Shown here in pieces: positions 1 through 18,600 of a stretch of 22,377 nt of DNA (its first letter is position 1; the number at the start of each line of letters is the position of its first letter). Made by a program: the position numbers and the translations under genes. The DNA is taken from IMG/VR virus record IMGVR_UViG_3300042542_004679, positions 1-22,377 of that record. The stretch is one strand, 5' to 3'. The notes beneath the pieces were generated by a model. It worked only from the letters and a program-made list of their open reading frames with translations, searched no databases and was not told where the DNA came from. This DNA comes from a virus.

Positions 1-597
1 AGAAGCTTTATTTAATTGTTCTAAAATCCATTCTTCATTGTATCCAAGTATTTTCATGTTTGATATTTTATCCAAATCTAAGACTTCTTCTTCTTTTAAA
101 TACGCTTTCCAATATATATTTCTTTTTTTAACATCTTCTCCGATATATAGTTCTAATAAATTAGCTAATTTATCAGATTTAGTAATGATAGAATTATGGA
201 TATTAGCACCTTGATTCCATCTAGATTCATTAAATAATAAATCTTTAAAATCATAATAATTACTTTGTTGTAATGATTGCCATTCATCTCCACTCATATA
301 ACTCCATTTATTCATTACTACTACTATATAATAACCAACATGTATAGTATCTTCATGTTCATCCAAACTCTCAAAATGTTTTTCTATTAATTTTTCACAT
401 TCTGGAGAGTATTTAAATACATGAAATACATAATCATCTGTTAAATTCCCTGATTTTTCAACATAAGCTGTACATTGACTATAAGAATTTTTATAATATT
501 TCTCAAAATCATAATACAATAATCTATGTTTTAAAATCATAGTAAATAAAGATGTTACATTGTAACTCATTAATTTATGTAACTCATCTAATGTCAT
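1..597 (-). CDS. Hypothetical phage protein, C-terminus cut by window edge
   Basis: An open frame starts at the ATG at 597-595 and runs without a stop to base 1, giving at least 199 residues. The start overlaps the stop of the upstream GIY-YIG-like gene as ATGA (597-594), so it is probably translationally coupled to it. The translation begins MTLDELHKLMSYNVTSLFT and is rich in aromatic and acidic residues (for example GDEWQSLQQSNYYDFKDLL). I see no signal peptide, membrane segment or catalytic motif, and do not recognise the family. That it is a real gene rests on the length of the open frame, the coupling, and base composition like its neighbours. Confidence 0.75.
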   Translation of the reverse strand, partial: MTLDELHKLMSYNVTSLFTMILKHRLLYYDFEKYYKNSYSQCTAYVEKSGNLTDDYVFHVFKYSPECEKLIEKHFESLDEHEDTIHVGYYIVVVMNKWSYMSGDEWQSLQQSNYYDFKDLLFNESRWNQGANIHNSIITKSDKLANLLELYIGEDVKKRNIYWKAYLKEEEVLDLDKISNMKILGYNEEWILEQLNKAS

Positions 598-1007
598 TCT
601 ATAAAATCTTTTTTAAATATCCTACCTAATATATTACCATTATAAGATAATTTATCAGGAAACCCACTTTTAAATATATAATAAAGTTCCCAAGCTGTAG
701 CTTGTTTTTTACCTTTAACATACTTAAGAATATCTCTTTTAAACTTATCTTTTCCTTTTTTTAATATATCGTTCTTTAAATCTATTGAACTACCATAATA
801 ATCTTTCCAATCACTTTCCTTAATGATATATTCATATATTTTTCTTGTATTTAATTCAAGTCTTCTTTTTTTACTTAATTTAACTCGTTTTTTATTGAAA
901 AATATCTTTTTACCAACATACCATTGTCCTGTATCTATATTATAAATAAAATGATCGTAATTTTTTGGAATATTCTTAACTTCTTTATTTTTATAACGCC
1001 AATTCAT
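594..1007 (-). CDS. GIY-YIG-like endonuclease (free-standing)
   Basis: A 137-residue protein resembling the small GIY-YIG-type nucleases of T4-like phages. The GIY element appears degenerate as F20-I21-Y22, and the YIG element is Y30-V31-G32 followed by KK. Next come a basic stretch (residues 39-49), the block SDWKDYYGSS (65-74), and GKDKFKRDIL (85-94). The expected metal-binding Glu is probably E107 in TAWELYYIF, and an Asn-rich end (N123, N125) matches the late conserved Asn. GIY-YIG enzymes cut DNA, often as homing endonucleases. No intron surrounds it, so it would be a free-standing mobile nuclease or a domesticated one. It overlaps the gene on each side (17 bp upstream, 4 bp downstream). 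The first Gly of GIY is missing, so activity is uncertain. Confidence 0.6.
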   Translation of the reverse strand: MNWRYKNKEVKNIPKNYDHFIYNIDTGQWYVGKKIFFNKKRVKLSKKRRLELNTRKIYEYIIKESDWKDYYGSSIDLKNDILKKGKDKFKRDILKYVKGKKQATAWELYYIFKSGFPDKLSYNGNILGRIFKKDFIE

Positions 1008-7604: not shown

Positions 7605-7853
7605 CTAATCATAATTAAATGAGATATAAGAACCTCCTGTATCTTCACATAATGCTTTTAATTGATCATTTGCTTGTGATATAGTTATAGCATTAGTTTT
7701 CCAGTTAACACTAGTTTTTACAGAATCATTCCCATCATTAACTATTAATATTTCAGGACGTTCATGAGAAAGATCTACATTTAAATTATATAGTTTTTTA
7801 TTATTTACTATTTCCTTTTCAATAGAATTAATAACGTGTCCGACCTGAGTGTC
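7605..7853 (-). CDS. VWA-domain protein, exon 2 (C-terminal 82 residues)
   Basis: This is the second exon of the VWA gene whose first exon is 9987-8995. The intron's P10 pairing places the start at the G at 7853. Joined in frame, exon 2 gives DTQVGHVINSIEKEIV and later HERPEILIVNDGND, ending SYISFNYD and TAG. It supplies the two MIDAS parts missing from exon 1: T333 (in DTQ) and D371 (in IVNDG). No independent start codon is needed and none is well placed. The first bases (7853-7833) are clearly richer in G and C than the surroundings. Without splicing this segment would not be translated as part of the VWA protein. Confidence 0.88.
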   Translation of the reverse strand, partial: DTQVGHVINSIEKEIVNNKKLYNLNVDLSHERPEILIVNDGNDSVKTSVNWKTNAITISQANDQLKALCEDTGGSYISFNYD

Positions 7854-8994
7854 CGTTAAATTAAAATTTAGTTTTTTTTCTTTCTAAGTAAATCGTTGCA
7901 TTTGAATAAATAAAATCTTTAAAGTTTTGTACATCTTTTTTAGATGAAAATCTTAAAGTTCTTGTTGTATTATTCCTATTAGGAAATCGACAACTTAATT
8001 TTGTTTTATTTAATCCAATTTTATTAATTAATAAATCTTGTAAACAAGTTAAAAACATTTCTGTTCCAACAATTTCTACACATGGATTTTTTCCATTTTT
8101 ATACCAAATACAACCATCCCCATCAAAATAACCTCTAATAAAATGATGAATTAAATTATCAGGGACTTGTGTAGGAAATTCAAGAATAAATGATTTATTA
8201 TTTAAACAACCTTTATCAATTAAATGCTTATAAAAATATTTATTAACAATCATTAACGTTTTTAAAACCTTTCTATGAAGAAATTTTTTAGGAGGTTTGA
8301 TTGTATAAATAGGTTTATTTGTATTAATAACGTCTTTAAATTTTTCAATTATAGGTAAATCCTCTTCTTGTAAAGTTAAAGTAACAGAATTTCTTTTAAT
8401 AGATACATATCCATCTGCATATAAATAACCTAAATAATAAGCTTTATCTTCCGTATCAATATCTTTAAAATATTGCTCATTTAATGAATATTTTTTCACA
8501 AACTGTGTATTATTTACAATTTTTACACCGTTTTCTTTTAATATTCTTGTAATAGGTATATTTGATAATTGAAATTTATCTGCTATTTTTTTAATACTAA
8601 ACTTTTTAATTGTATAAAGTTCTATAACTTCTTTGATTTGTTCTTTTGACAGATTTACTTTTTTCATATTATATTATTTGTATAATACAATATACGGAAA
8701 TATAATAATTTAACCAAATTTTAATTTATAATATTCAATATAATTCGTTAAATTATATTCGGAATTAAATCCAGCTTATAGTTTCCTATAAGATTAGACT
8801 ATATCTTCATCCTATACTCTATAGGATGTCTACCTTTTCCATTCACTTGAATGTACTCCCTTGCGGGATAGTCGTTACACCTTCTTATTTCTAAGCTTGG
8901 CTCGGTATTGTCTTCAGCATTATCTGTTAAGAGTTCCACCGAATTAGATAGATTTATTTTTGTATAAATTACTTTATACCGAGGCAACACTTTT
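7854..8994 (-). ncRNA. Group I intron (td-like, subgroup IA2) in the VWA gene
   Basis: A 1141-nt self-splicing intron. The last exon-1 bases GAGGT (8999-8995) pair with the internal guide GCCTC (8985-8981), giving the conserved U-G pair at the 5' splice site. AGTGTT (8991-8986) pairs with GACACT at the start of exon 2 (7853-7848) as P10, and the intron ends in G (7854). The core matches the T4 td intron closely by eye: AACGACTATCCC (P7 5' strand, CGACTAT at 8874-8868), GGGAGTA, AGATATAGTCT (P7 3' strand, 8806-8796), a P8 hairpin (8828-8808), a P9.1-type hairpin (8792-8775), and AGCTGGATTTAATTCCG. The core occupies about 8994-8740; the endonuclease gene lies between P9 and the 3' splice site, not in P6 as in td. 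The 327 bases 8994-8668 hold no protein gene. Confidence 0.93.
7861..8667 (-). CDS. Intron-encoded LAGLIDADG homing endonuclease
   Basis: A 268-residue homing endonuclease that would cut intronless copies of the VWA gene and so spread the intron. The N-terminus is a helix-turn-helix of the kind seen in resolvases (residues 24-47: SIKKIADKFQLSNIPITRIL). Two LAGLIDADG helices follow: YYLGYLYADG (77-86) and FIRGYFDGDG (176-185). Each ends with the acidic metal-binding residue, so the enzyme should act as a monomer. The gene is complete and its stop lies 6 nt before the intron's last base. T4-type group I introns more often carry GIY-YIG or HNH genes, so the pairing with a td-like core is notable. 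No frameshift, so it is probably active. Confidence 0.92.
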   Translation of the reverse strand: MKKVNLSKEQIKEVIELYTIKKFSIKKIADKFQLSNIPITRILKENGVKIVNNTQFVKKYSLNEQYFKDIDTEDKAYYLGYLYADGYVSIKRNSVTLTLQEEDLPIIEKFKDVINTNKPIYTIKPPKKFLHRKVLKTLMIVNKYFYKHLIDKGCLNNKSFILEFPTQVPDNLIHHFIRGYFDGDGCIWYKNGKNPCVEIVGTEMFLTCLQDLLINKIGLNKTKLSCRFPNRNNTTRTLRFSSKKDVQNFKDFIYSNATIYLERKKTKF

Positions 8995-9987
8995 ACCTCC
9001 ACCAGGATTAAAATTAAATGTTTTCCAAAATTCTAATGCGGATTGTTCATCATAAATATGTGTAAATTTATAGGATTTTATAGTTCCTTCAGTTAAAAAC
9101 ATACTTATAAATACTTCACATTCTTTAATCATAGCATATTGTAATCTATTAGCTACAATAGCATAAACCCATTCTTTTTTAAAATTCTCATTCATTGAAC
9201 CGCTGTCGTCAATGAGGATAATAATCTTTTGTTTTTTAGTTTCAGGTTTAACAGGAACATTAGTAATTAACGTTTTCTGAGCTAATCTAATATCATAATC
9301 AGGCAACATTCTTTGATATAATGGACTTCTCATAATATCTTCAAAATGGGTTAATCGTTTCTGTTTAGTTTTAGGAGCATTTTGTACTCTTTTATCTGTA
9401 ACTTTCTTTTTAACTTCAAAAGATTTACCAAAACTTTCTACTTTAGCTATACGTCTAAGAAAATCCACATTTTGTTTAAAAGTATTAATATCTTTTCTAT
9501 TTTCTTTTAATTTTTGTAAATTAGGGTTTTCCCATTCTCCTTTTCCTGGTAGATTATCTCTCATTTCTTGCATGAAATCATCTTGAGTAGAAGGTTCTGC
9601 TCCTTCCATAAAACTTTCTGGATCTTGTTGACCAGCTATTTCTTTCATATATTGCAATAAAAAGAGAGCTTTATCTATGAATGTATAACCTGGAATATAT
9701 TCATTATATAAACCTTCATAAAAATTTGTTTTTTTAGCTAATTTTTCTTGTTGTTGCTCATTAAATTTACTCATGTCTTTAAAACTATCATCAATATAGT
9801 CTTTATTCCACATCATTTGATGAGAAAAAAATCTAGTTAGTTCCTGAAAAAATTCAGGTCTAACATAATTCATCTTATTATTTTGTAAGATAGAAGTACT
9901 ATACCCCAAAGTAGGAGTATAGTACCATTCATTATCTTTAATAAATAAGGGTTTTTCTGTTTTTTCCTTAAAATTAAACCAATTCAT
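8995..9987 (-). CDS. VWA-domain protein, exon 1 (N-terminal 331 residues)
   Basis: First exon of a 413-residue von Willebrand factor A protein; exon 2 is 7853-7605. Residues 1-250 are a mixed, partly Q/E-rich region. The VWA domain begins near 254 with IIILIDDSGSM, giving the MIDAS D260-x-S262-x-S264. Exon 1 ends NPGGG at G331, directly before the MIDAS Thr. Unspliced message would read six intron codons (KSVASV) and stop at 8974, giving a 337-residue protein without T333 and D371. The start overlaps the stop of the AAA+ gene by one base (TAATG). MoxR ATPases and VWA proteins typically work as pairs (for example RavA-ViaA, CobS-CobT); the target here is unknown. Confidence 0.9.
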
Positions 9988-11165
9988 TATTTTTTATTTA
10001 ATTGATCGAGTCCTGTTAATTTTTGCAACTCATTCATATTTTTCTCTAAAATTTGATTCCATTTCTCATCTAACATTGTTACTTTCTTCATTAATTCATC
10101 ATCAGTTTTAGTTTTAGATAACTCTTCTTTAGATCTTTTAATTGTTTGTAACGCTTCTTTAAATACTGGTAAATTAATAGTTTGGAATCCACCAGAAAAA
10201 TCAATAGTATTAATTTGTTTAATAGCCTCATCAACTTTATCTGTTAATTCATCAATTCGAGCTACAGATTTATATTTTTTAATACTTTCTTGAACTACAG
10301 ATTTTGCTCTTTCAGAAGTAAATTCTGCAACATAAGACATATAATCTGTTCCTGCTTCTTCCATTCCTAATAATACTTTTACAGCAGTTCTTGGTGAAAC
10401 AATAAGTTTATCTTTAGCCAATTCTCCTAAAATATATGCTAAAGTTTTATTACTTTTTCCAAAACATTCTTTAAACATATGAGAATAGTTTTCTGCATTA
10501 TAAGCAGGCCATTCTACTTTAACTTCCATTACAAAACGTTCCATTAAAGCTTTTAAAGATGCATTATCTGTAGCAAAATCTGCACGAGATTTATTAGTAC
10601 AAATAACAATCATTTTAGTTTTTAAAGGATGACGTTGTGTACCATTTCTAAATTCTTTAGAAGTCAATATATCTTTTAATGCTTCTAAAACAAAATCTGG
10701 AGCATCTAAAGCTTCTTCAAATACTACATATTCCTCATTCATAAATGAATTTTCAATTAAATATTCGATTGCTCCTGGCTTTTTTATATAAATAGGTTGC
10801 ACATCATTAATATCTAATCCTGCTTCTAACGCAGCTTTCTTAGCTTCTGCTGTAGCTTTATGATCAATAATACCATGACTAAATAAACCTAAATCTACAC
10901 CACCTAATAGAGCATCAATAGTAGTACCACTACCTAAAGATTTTACATAAGGGTTAATGCCTAAATCTTTGAAATATTTATTAACTATTTCAGATTTACC
11001 AAATCCACCCATTCCCCATAAAATAATATTTTCTCCTGATTTACGAGCTAATTCAAGTCCTTTAAATACATGATCTGCATATACAAATTTAGAAGGGACG
11101 TGTTTTGTTTTAATTTCTTGTTGAATACCTTGTTCCATACTTGGAATTTCATTAATTGTTGCCAT
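9987..11165 (-). CDS. MoxR-type AAA+ ATPase
   Basis: A 392-residue AAA+ ATPase. Walker A is G51-M-G-G-F-G-K-S58, Walker B is YVVFEE (146-151), sensor 1 is N191 in IVICTNKS, the arginine finger is probably R210 in ALMERF, and sensor 2 is R259 in SPRTAVK. These features and the adjacent VWA gene fit the MoxR/RavA/CobS type, hexameric machines that remodel or load metals into partner proteins. The C-terminal 120 residues are helical and charged (a likely coiled coil near 335-380). Its start follows a 26-bp gap after three overlapping unknown genes that may be partners. A role in phage replication or late assembly is inference; no substrate can be read. Confidence 0.9.
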   Translation of the reverse strand: MATINEIPSMEQGIQQEIKTKHVPSKFVYADHVFKGLELARKSGENIILWGMGGFGKSEIVNKYFKDLGINPYVKSLGSGTTIDALLGGVDLGLFSHGIIDHKATAEAKKAALEAGLDINDVQPIYIKKPGAIEYLIENSFMNEEYVVFEEALDAPDFVLEALKDILTSKEFRNGTQRHPLKTKMIVICTNKSRADFATDNASLKALMERFVMEVKVEWPAYNAENYSHMFKECFGKSNKTLAYILGELAKDKLIVSPRTAVKVLLGMEEAGTDYMSYVAEFTSERAKSVVQESIKKYKSVARIDELTDKVDEAIKQINTIDFSGGFQTINLPVFKEALQTIKRSKEELSKTKTDDELMKKVTMLDEKWNQILEKNMNELQKLTGLDQLNKK

Positions 11166-12959: not shown

Positions 12960-13529
12960 TTATTTAATGTTATTTAATATGTTTTCTATGTTATTAATTA
13001 TTTTATCAGTAGATAAACGTTGTTTTTTATCTAAATGACTTTCTTCTATAAGATATATTCTATGATGTTTATCATAAACTAAATATACTCGTTCTCTTCT
13101 ACCATTTATATCTGTGATTATATATTCATTATTTTTAACATATAATAAAGTTTCTTGAGTTAAACTTATTGGATCAGAAATTTTTTTACCCTTAATTCTA
13201 TAAAAAGAACGTATTTTAGTGATATCTATTGCTACAAAAGAATATATAAAAATAAAAGAAGCTTTTATATATACTATAGATCCTTTTTCATATTTTGGTG
13301 GAATATATTCGAAATTTGGTACTAATTCAAAACTTGATTCACTAACAAATTTATCAAAATGCCCTGTTTTTGGGTTTCCTTCATATTTTTCTTTAATTCT
13401 ATATCCAAGAGAATTATTATAATATCCTGTTTCAGTAATTGTGGCTATTTTTCCTATTTGTGAAGGAGGAAAACCTGAACCCGCATTAATAATTTTTACT
13501 TTATCTCCTACTTTAAATTTATAGGTCAT
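12960..13529 (-). CDS. SH3/KOW-like protein with extra C-terminal domain
   Basis: A 189-residue protein. Residues 3-69 (FKVGDKVKIINAGSGFPPSQ, GKIATITETGYY, FVSESSFELV) form an SH3- or KOW-like barrel that is about 60 percent identical by eye to the product of the next upstream gene (13526-13777). The remaining 115 residues form a second beta-rich, basic region (YEKGSIVYIKASFIFIYSF, then RRERVYLVYDKHHRIYLIEE) which the neighbour lacks. The start overlaps the neighbour's stop as ATGA. The pair probably arose by tandem duplication followed by fusion or loss. Function unknown. Confidence 0.72.
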   Translation of the reverse strand: MTYKFKVGDKVKIINAGSGFPPSQIGKIATITETGYYNNSLGYRIKEKYEGNPKTGHFDKFVSESSFELVPNFEYIPPKYEKGSIVYIKASFIFIYSFVAIDITKIRSFYRIKGKKISDPISLTQETLLYVKNNEYIITDINGRRERVYLVYDKHHRIYLIEESHLDKKQRLSTDKIINNIENILNNIK

Positions 13530-13777
13530 ATTAATAATAATATAGAATTATTTTTTGGTGCTTTTTTATATAGTTTAAAACTTGCTTCTCCTACAAATCC
13601 ATCAAGCTTACCTGATGTTGGATTTCCATAATATTTTTCTTCAATTAAATATCCTGGTCCAGAAAAGTATTGTCCTTTAGCAGTAATTGTAGCTATTTTT
13701 CCTACTTCTGAAGGCCAAAAACCTGAACCAGAATCATTAATTTGTACTTTATCTCCTATGTTAAATTTGTATTTCAT
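13526..13777 (-). CDS. SH3/KOW-like protein, short tandem paralogue
   Basis: An 83-residue protein made of the SH3/KOW-like domain only: FNIGDKVQINDSGSGFWPSE, VGKIATITAKGQYF, YYGNPTSGKLDGFVGEASF. It then ends in a short tail KKAPKNNSILLLI that has no counterpart in 12960-13529. It could be an ancestral single-domain copy or a truncated duplicate. The ATGA overlap with the longer copy suggests coupled translation. Confidence 0.7.
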   Translation of the reverse strand: MKYKFNIGDKVQINDSGSGFWPSEVGKIATITAKGQYFSGPGYLIEEKYYGNPTSGKLDGFVGEASFKLYKKAPKNNSILLLI

Positions 13778-13872: not shown

Positions 13873-13886
13873 TTTATTTAGTAAAA

Positions 13887-18530: not shown

Positions 18531-18600
18531 GGGGTTATAATAGGATTCGAACCTACATCCGATTATTAATAATCATAATACCAATTATACTATATAACCC
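18531..18600 (-). tRNA. tRNA-like gene with shortened anticodon arm, isotype uncertain
   Basis: On the minus strand the acceptor ends pair (GGTTATA near 18599-18593 with TATAACC at 18539-18533), the D loop reads AATTGGTA, and the T arm GTAGG-TTCGAAT-CCTAT is normal (GGTTCGAATCC at 18553-18543). Only 18 nt separate the D and T stems where about 23 are usual. That segment contains the perfect palindrome GATTATTAATAATC (18574-18561). No standard 7-nt loop with U33 can be drawn without mismatches, so I do not name an anticodon. No CCA is encoded. It may be a decayed tRNA or a structured RNA derived from one. Confidence 0.6.

Follow-up and report, generated by a model that had tools for sequence, protein, structure and literature searches.

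A td-like group I intron with a LAGLIDADG endonuclease in a phage VWA-like gene beside a MoxR ATPase gene: three alleles consistent with homing

Introduction

How can a phage gene that is cut in two by an insert of 1,141 bases still give rise to one protein, and how did the insert come to lie there? These questions are raised by a gene for a VWA-like protein in the 22,377-base IMG/VR virus record IMGVR_UViG_3300042542_004679, which was analysed at its full length and is referred to as the window. The split gene lies on the minus strand and is the partner of a MoxR-type ATPase gene. Exon 1, used as query against viral contigs, led to two related strains, namely contig UViG_3300036406_001035 (G001; locus L002), which carries the same insert, and contig UViG_3300042879_003877 (G002; locus L003), in which the gene is uninterrupted. 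Taken together, the data indicate that a mobile, td-like group I intron with a LAGLIDADG homing endonuclease has very probably entered the VWA-like MoxR-partner gene, with splicing and homing being read from sequence comparisons and computed folds. The element is of a known kind; a group I intron in a VWA or MoxR-partner gene was not found reported in the literature searched. The split gene is composed of the following parts:

8995 to 9987, minus strand: exon 1 of the VWA-like gene, 993 nucleotides, 331 residues, ending with GGG and corresponding to residues 1 to 331 of the G002 gene
7854 to 8994, minus strand: group I intron, 1,141 bases, last base G; missing as a single block in G002 and letter-identical in G001
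7605 to 7853, minus strand: exon 2 of the VWA-like gene, 249 nucleotides, 82 residues plus stop, starting with DTQVGH and corresponding to the remainder of the G002 protein

The insert is a group I intron

When joined, the exons are translated in frame into 413 residues followed by a stop codon, and the intron is located between the codons for G331 and D332, one codon ahead of T333, a putative metal-binding residue. An in-frame product of this length had been foreseen in the original prediction, which a model made from the letters of the window, and it is letter-identical to the protein encoded by the uninterrupted 413-residue gene of G002. The predicted junction GGGDTQ is likewise present, exactly, in this strain, the one intronless relative found; a search of IMG/VR with a degenerate GGGDTQVGH pattern matched the known intronless strain alone.

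The insert contains a ribozyme core and the pairings that are expected to align the splice sites:

8775 to 9004, minus strand: ribozyme core, RF00028, 95.9 bits, E 4.4e-25, full model
8995 to 8999, minus strand: exon strand of P1, GAGGU, with the U at 8995 as final base of exon 1
8981 to 8985, minus strand: intron strand of P1, GCCUC, paired in the computed fold, with a U.G pair at the 5' splice site
8986 to 8991, minus strand: guide strand of P10, AGUGUU, which pairs with GACACU of exon 2 (-4.8 kcal/mol)
7848 to 7853, minus strand: exon strand of P10, GACACU, located by sequence
8840 to 8868, minus strand: two hairpins, similar to P7.1 and P7.2, that lie between the strands of P7 and P3, both in the minimum-energy fold and an insertion in the RF00028 alignment

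The RF00028 match, for which the cut-off is 50 bits, was obtained in a permissive-filter scan of 1.6 kb and bears out the group I assignment made beforehand. A separate search of whole records gave 95.9 bits in the window and in G001 and nothing in G002; the same search also produced matches at E values of up to 1 in eight of 14 control genomes, two of which were above the cut-off. The fold of the core is four standard deviations below that of shuffled sequences, and none of 200 shuffles was as low. Two extra hairpins, P7.1 and P7.2, are characteristic of the td-like subgroup IA2; the pair at 8840 to 8868 is located where these would be expected, which makes the intron a candidate member. At the 3' splice site, the final base of the intron is the G at 7854. 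The splice points 8995/8994 and 7854/7853, which had been proposed from P1 and P10, turned out to be exact in both coordinates and pairings. We thus regard the element as a group I intron that is predicted to splice itself: the intron guide would pair with the last bases of exon 1 in P1 and with the first bases of exon 2 in P10, and the intron RNA would then excise itself and join the exons in frame.

Two other interpretations of the insert have to be considered. LAGLIDADG enzymes are also common in inteins, and this is what speaks for reading the element as an intein; however, the reading frame is not continuous, as unspliced RNA contains a TAA stop after six intron codons, which refutes an intein. 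An unrelated insertion is refuted by the RF00028 match, and an assembly artefact is contradicted by the presence of the element, with identical junctions, in another IMG/VR contig with differing flanks. Altogether, an intein, an insertion of another kind and an assembly artefact each have next to no chance of being correct. The stop codon also leads to the second interpretation, a broken gene whose intron has lost the ability to splice, so that the protein ends after exon 1. The frame from 8974 to 9987 indeed gives such a truncated protein, which consists of the sequence up to residue 331 and six intron codons. Against this stand the intact core, P1, P10 and final G, the open reading frames of both exons, and exon 2, which differs from its counterpart in the intact strain by a single silent base; a broken gene is therefore very improbable, and the intron is probably active.

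Three alleles of the split gene

If the intron is mobile, an intronless allele should help to reconstruct its arrival. The window and G002 differ at 42 of 21,236 aligned positions, in addition to the 1,141-base intron and a 9-base insertion in G002 near position 943. From 10487 to position 1, which corresponds to 9,346 aligned bases, the only substitutions are located at 8995 and 7851, accompanied by the intron and the 9-base indel. Position 8995, the last base of exon 1 (-1), is T in the window and A in G002 (the whole-window alignment prints this difference as 7854), and position 7851, the third base of exon 2 (+3), is C in the window and T in G002. Both substitutions are silent (GGT/GGA and GAC/GAT), and the bases of the window strengthen P1 and P10, respectively: the P1 hairpin has -6.8 kcal/mol with the window base and -2.5 kcal/mol with that of the intronless allele, and P10 has -4.8 and -2.9 kcal/mol. 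The chance that two randomly placed substitutions both fall within the 11 pairing exon bases out of 9,346 is about 1e-6, calculated post hoc. The comparison with G002, an unusually clear natural one, is the specific evidence for the presumed homing of the intron.

The intron of G001 is letter-identical to that of the window and is flanked by the same T and C, with 294 substitutions in 22,359 aligned bases between the two records. The differences closest to the intron are located at 9040 and 7778, and the window resembles G002 at both positions. A possible co-transferred exon tract would hence comprise 1 to 45 bases of exon 1 and 3 to 75 bases of exon 2. In this way, three natural alleles confine the exchanged tract to tens of bases and tie both substituted bases to the splicing pairings. 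Homing with co-conversion of short exon pieces appears to be the best explanation of the three alleles.

Several observations weigh against this interpretation or limit it. The longest identical run between the window and G001, 1,261 bases, spans the intron, yet runs of 1,234 and 1,184 bases are found elsewhere; since such runs imply that the strains recombine generally, the identity of the G001 intron alone is weak evidence for homing. The default-filter Rfam scan of the whole window listed a tRNA alone and missed the intron. L002 was likewise absent from the results of an Rfam scan that covered four loci at E 0.01, although the whole-record search detects its intron. Moreover, three alleles do not fix the direction of the change, which may be a gain in the window or a loss in G002.

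The last point is the starting point for a different history, in which G002 is the derived strain: recombination with an intronless allele from a third strain would have removed an ancestral intron, without any recent homing. Frequent general recombination is in line with the long identical runs that the window shares with both G001 and G002, and three alleles leave the direction unfixed. The exchange of at most 45 and at most 75 exon bases, however, suits break repair better than ordinary crossovers. Loss via a spliced RNA copy would have retained the T and the C, whereas G002 has A and T. Overall, we consider a derived G002 unlikely. Intron loss through a spliced RNA copy was also considered on its own; it was rejected, since the differing bases at -1 and +3 of the intronless allele make any RNA-mediated loss unlikely.

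Under homing with co-conversion, the bases at -1 and +3 could be mere passengers. It is conceivable, if somewhat doubtful, that they are not, that the intron carries its own exon splice site along and that the silent A at -1 serves as a defence. As the A of the intronless allele breaks P1, splicing would then need co-conversion of that base and, if this is true, insertion without co-conversion kills the host gene. The three alleles offer a clean test of whether a homed intron needs co-conversion in order to splice.

Another phage group with a td-like core was observed at the starts of loci L025, L026 (reversed) and L028. An insert of 288 bases is present in L025 and L026 and missing in L028; the only nearby substitutions are located about 12 and 9 bases before the insert, and none is found in the 498 bases preceding those two. 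This group may thus be a second example in which exon bases beside an insert have changed.

The endonuclease and the proposed route of spread

Homing requires an enzyme that cuts the empty allele, and the intron contains a candidate gene surrounded by RNA structure:

7861 to 8667, minus strand: homing endonuclease gene, encoding 268 residues with two LAGLIDADG motifs; PF14528 (LAGLIDADG_3), phrog_4645
8712 to 8728, minus strand: 5' arm of a 17-pair stem, an inverted repeat whose arms are 94% complementary
7857 to 7873, minus strand: 3' arm of the 17-pair stem, which stops three bases short of the last intron base 7854
8665 to 8694, minus strand: 13-pair hairpin, the 3' arm of which finishes with the endonuclease start codon

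PF14528 matches the protein in two stretches with 43.5 bits (cut-off 22.5), and the match to phrog_4645 has an E value of 7e-60. D85 and D184 are unchanged in seven aligned endonuclease proteins, and relatives of the enzyme occur in 115 of 50,697 phage records. The endonuclease frame sits in the loop of the extra 17-pair stem near the 3' splice site; this stem scores 16.3, compared to a maximum of 15 in 1,000 simulated pairs. The start-codon hairpin is moderately better than shuffled sequences (fold of 8775-8640, z -2.06; eight of 200 shuffles equal or better).

In the light of the three alleles, the enzyme would most likely cut the intronless site. According to the proposed mechanism, the endonuclease would be translated from the hairpin-held start codon and cut the intronless allele of a co-infecting sibling, and repair of the break from the intron-bearing copy would spread the intron together with a short exon piece on either side.

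The host gene and its MoxR neighbour

Which protein, then, did the intron enter? Group I introns tend to insert at conserved protein sites (PMC2814812). The gene next to the split one encodes an ATPase:

9987 to 11165, minus strand: MoxR-type AAA+ ATPase gene, directly upstream of the split gene; PF20030 (bpMoxR), 49.8 bits, cut-off 27

This match identifies the neighbour as a MoxR ATPase gene and the split gene as its presumed partner. The VWA label itself is based on a PHROG match (phrog_5359, function unknown, E 9.8e-5), sub-threshold Pfam matches, motif letters and the MoxR neighbour. The metal ion-dependent adhesion site (MIDAS) of VWA domains is formed by DxSxS, T and D, and the protein of the window contains D260-x-S262-x-S264, T333 and D371 in this order. 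The full MIDAS site claimed in the original prediction is hence present at the level of motif letters (260 to 264, 333 and 371); it gained no structural confirmation, as the predicted structure of the uninterrupted protein has a pLDDT of 33 and is unusable. The claim of a VWA gene likewise stays tentative, since the Pfam VWA matches remain below their cut-offs: VWA_2 scores 14.9 bits (cut-off 27) and VWA_CoxE 12.3 bits (cut-off 26.4), their E values range from 0.035 to 0.11, and an unrelated family is found among them at 0.066, which counts against the VWA part of our interpretation. The single match to the PDB has an E value of 0.82. For the VWA-like and MoxR proteins, no relatives were detected in the 50,697 phage records at E 1e-5 or E 0.1, and three matches were obtained at E=5; in the genome collection, too, nothing related to the VWA-like protein of the window turned up.

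Relatives of the enzyme in DUF2201 genes

To judge whether VWA-like genes are hit more than once, the surroundings of related enzymes are informative. A profile search of viral contigs gave at least 552 relatives of the endonuclease; 80 loci were kept, one of which is the known strain. A gene of the VWA-like family DUF2201, which also matches in two of 14 control genomes, is present in 11 of the 79 other records (10 of 40 plus one of 39). In three of these 11 (L066, L104 and L053), DUF2201 is encoded on the strand of the enzyme, and the gene is split by an insert that bears the enzyme. The exons rejoin in frame at LLHEV/LHIALGH in L066 (insert of 1,150 bases) and within KHELLHIAFFH in L104 (1,097 bases), both inside HExxH, and at NIAQD/AEVN, beyond HExxH, in L053 (1,159 bases). 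All three share a T as the last base before the insert, a hairpin resembling P1 and a G at the end of the insert, and in each of them a P-loop ATPase gene follows the split gene; the ATPase of L066, the one of the three covered by the profile scan, matches AAA with 25.0 bits (cut-off 21.2).

Some points tell against counting these three cases as introns. The splice points were chosen to fit, and RF00028 matches are found in two pieces below the cut-off of 50 bits in L066 (29.5 and 25.2 bits) and L104 (28.9 and 32.8 bits) and not at all at the insert of L053. For L066, a wider scan gave no RF00028 match at the insert at E 0.01. The enzyme frame has one stop in L066 and is in pieces in L053. An Rfam scan at the gathering cut-off, which covered 13 of the 79 further loci, matched one of them, and a short P7-like string is present on the enzyme strand in 20 of the 80 loci. 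The host genes also differ from that of the window: DUF2201 comprises a metallopeptidase and a VWA-like part, both above Pfam cut-offs in L066, and the similarity of the window gene is limited to the motif. Besides the known strain, the best match of the window gene among the loci has an E value of 0.035, and L066 is matched at 1.3. The insert lies in HExxH in L066 and L104 and further on in L053, whereas in the window it is located at the VWA threonine.

The enzyme tree was calculated from 80 enzymes, 72 of them different, with stops treated as X and pieces joined from tblastn. Of its 69 inner branches, 35 stay open, and the position of the window enzyme is not firm. The tree requires at least three changes for the label of an intron in a VWA gene. 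Introns with this kind of enzyme thus probably entered VWA-like genes more than once, at three sites. By the same route, relatives of the enzyme would have reached VWA-like genes next to ATPase genes in other phages, at other sites, where splicing is again predicted. VWA-like genes of ATPase partners would then be added to the genes known to harbour phage introns; the three DUF2201 genes are likely additional cases, and this gene class may be a recurrent intron target.

In the remaining eight of the 11 records, the DUF2201 domain is encoded on the opposite strand, 0.9 to 2.1 kb from the enzyme (L041, L060, L051, L069, L046, L055, L040 and L054). These eight form one strongly supported group of the tree together with two records without a DUF2201 match. 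In L041, the DUF2201 gene is whole and adjoins the enzyme gene. The enzymes of this group are possibly free-standing and target the neighbouring gene.

Other features of the window and of G001

Beyond the split gene, the window contains several features of interest:

597 to 1007, minus strand: SegE-like gene for a free-standing GIY-YIG endonuclease (PF19835, 63.4 bits)
12960 to 13777, minus strand: repeat of about 210 bases common to two adjoining genes, 76% identity
16188 to 18492, minus strand: nicotinamide phosphoribosyltransferase gene beside a NUDIX-domain gene, likely a phage NAD salvage pair
18531 to 18599, minus strand: tRNA-like gene, for which ARAGORN gives a two-base anticodon and names no amino acid

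At 1376 to 2113 of L002, near position 13885 of the window, an additional gene is found in G001; its product of 245 residues begins in a P-loop-like manner (GANGSGKS), and the gene is not in the window at this place. A profile search for terminase PF03237 found none in the window record, G001 and G002, for which reason the phage is left unplaced; DNA polymerase matches are 28 to 31% identical (15 among the matches listed).

Comparison with known systems

The closest well-studied counterpart is the td intron of phage T4. The original prediction of a td-like core is upheld by an identity of about 71%, with 70 of 98 aligned bases identical in the 5' part and 104 of 147 identical in the 3' part; the region that follows P9 is included in this resemblance. 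The alignment scores, 81.5 (5') and 99.5 (3', from the first 110 bases only), are far above the maxima of 60.5 and 61.0 reached in 200 letter shuffles each. The host gene of td is the thymidylate synthase gene, whereas the intron of the window resides in a MoxR-partner gene. The endonucleases differ as well: that of td is the GIY-YIG enzyme I-TevI, encoded between the 5' and 3' parts of the core, whereas the LAGLIDADG gene of the window is located near the 3' end. In both the window intron and T4 introns, the endonuclease start lies in a hairpin; such hairpins repress the T4 endonuclease genes, and homing with exon co-conversion is established for td (PMC2988022).

By DNA, the cores of introns of Staphylococcus phages (SapYZU04, phage 812 and relatives) are 73 to 78% identical to that of the window and thus slightly closer than td; three cores of one such phage match at 169 of 220, 159 of 217 and 165 of 212 bases. 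Their contexts differ and include recA, tmpA or tail tube features or none, and a place between capsid and hypothetical genes in SapYZU04. A recA intron of a Sepunavirus encodes a DOD endonuclease, which we take to be a LAGLIDADG enzyme, with about 28% identity to that of the window. Enzymes of phrog_4645 from crAss-like, Alicyclobacillus and Staphylococcus phages are 34 to 43% identical and keep both motifs; where annotated, their neighbours include recA, DNA polymerase, MRE11-like and ATPase genes.

The gene pair itself has parallels in pairs of the RavA-ViaA type, in which a MoxR ATPase is likewise found beside a protein that bears a motif of the VWA type. Phage 0305phi8-36 has also been described to contain a MoxR pair (PMC2147016), the record of which lay outside our sequence comparison. 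A comparison of T4-like phages lists VWA genes and reports that no group I introns were detected in the newly sequenced genomes. Other papers listed were an unrelated one on Clostridium and, for DUF2201 and introns in phages, one on a coral genome. In the literature searched, phage introns are hosted by genes for DNA polymerase, terminase, ribonucleotide reductase and thymidylate synthase; the introns of the Bastillevirinae are located in genes of these same four kinds (polymerase, terminase, reductase and thymidylate synthase; PMC11878797), an RNA polymerase subunit gene is a further published case (PMC11620839), and recA is an intron host according to a database record. In phage PhiPA3, the endonuclease of an intron damages an intronless competitor (PMC11620839). 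By analogy, the endonuclease of the window might possibly have a similar role in harming competing phages.

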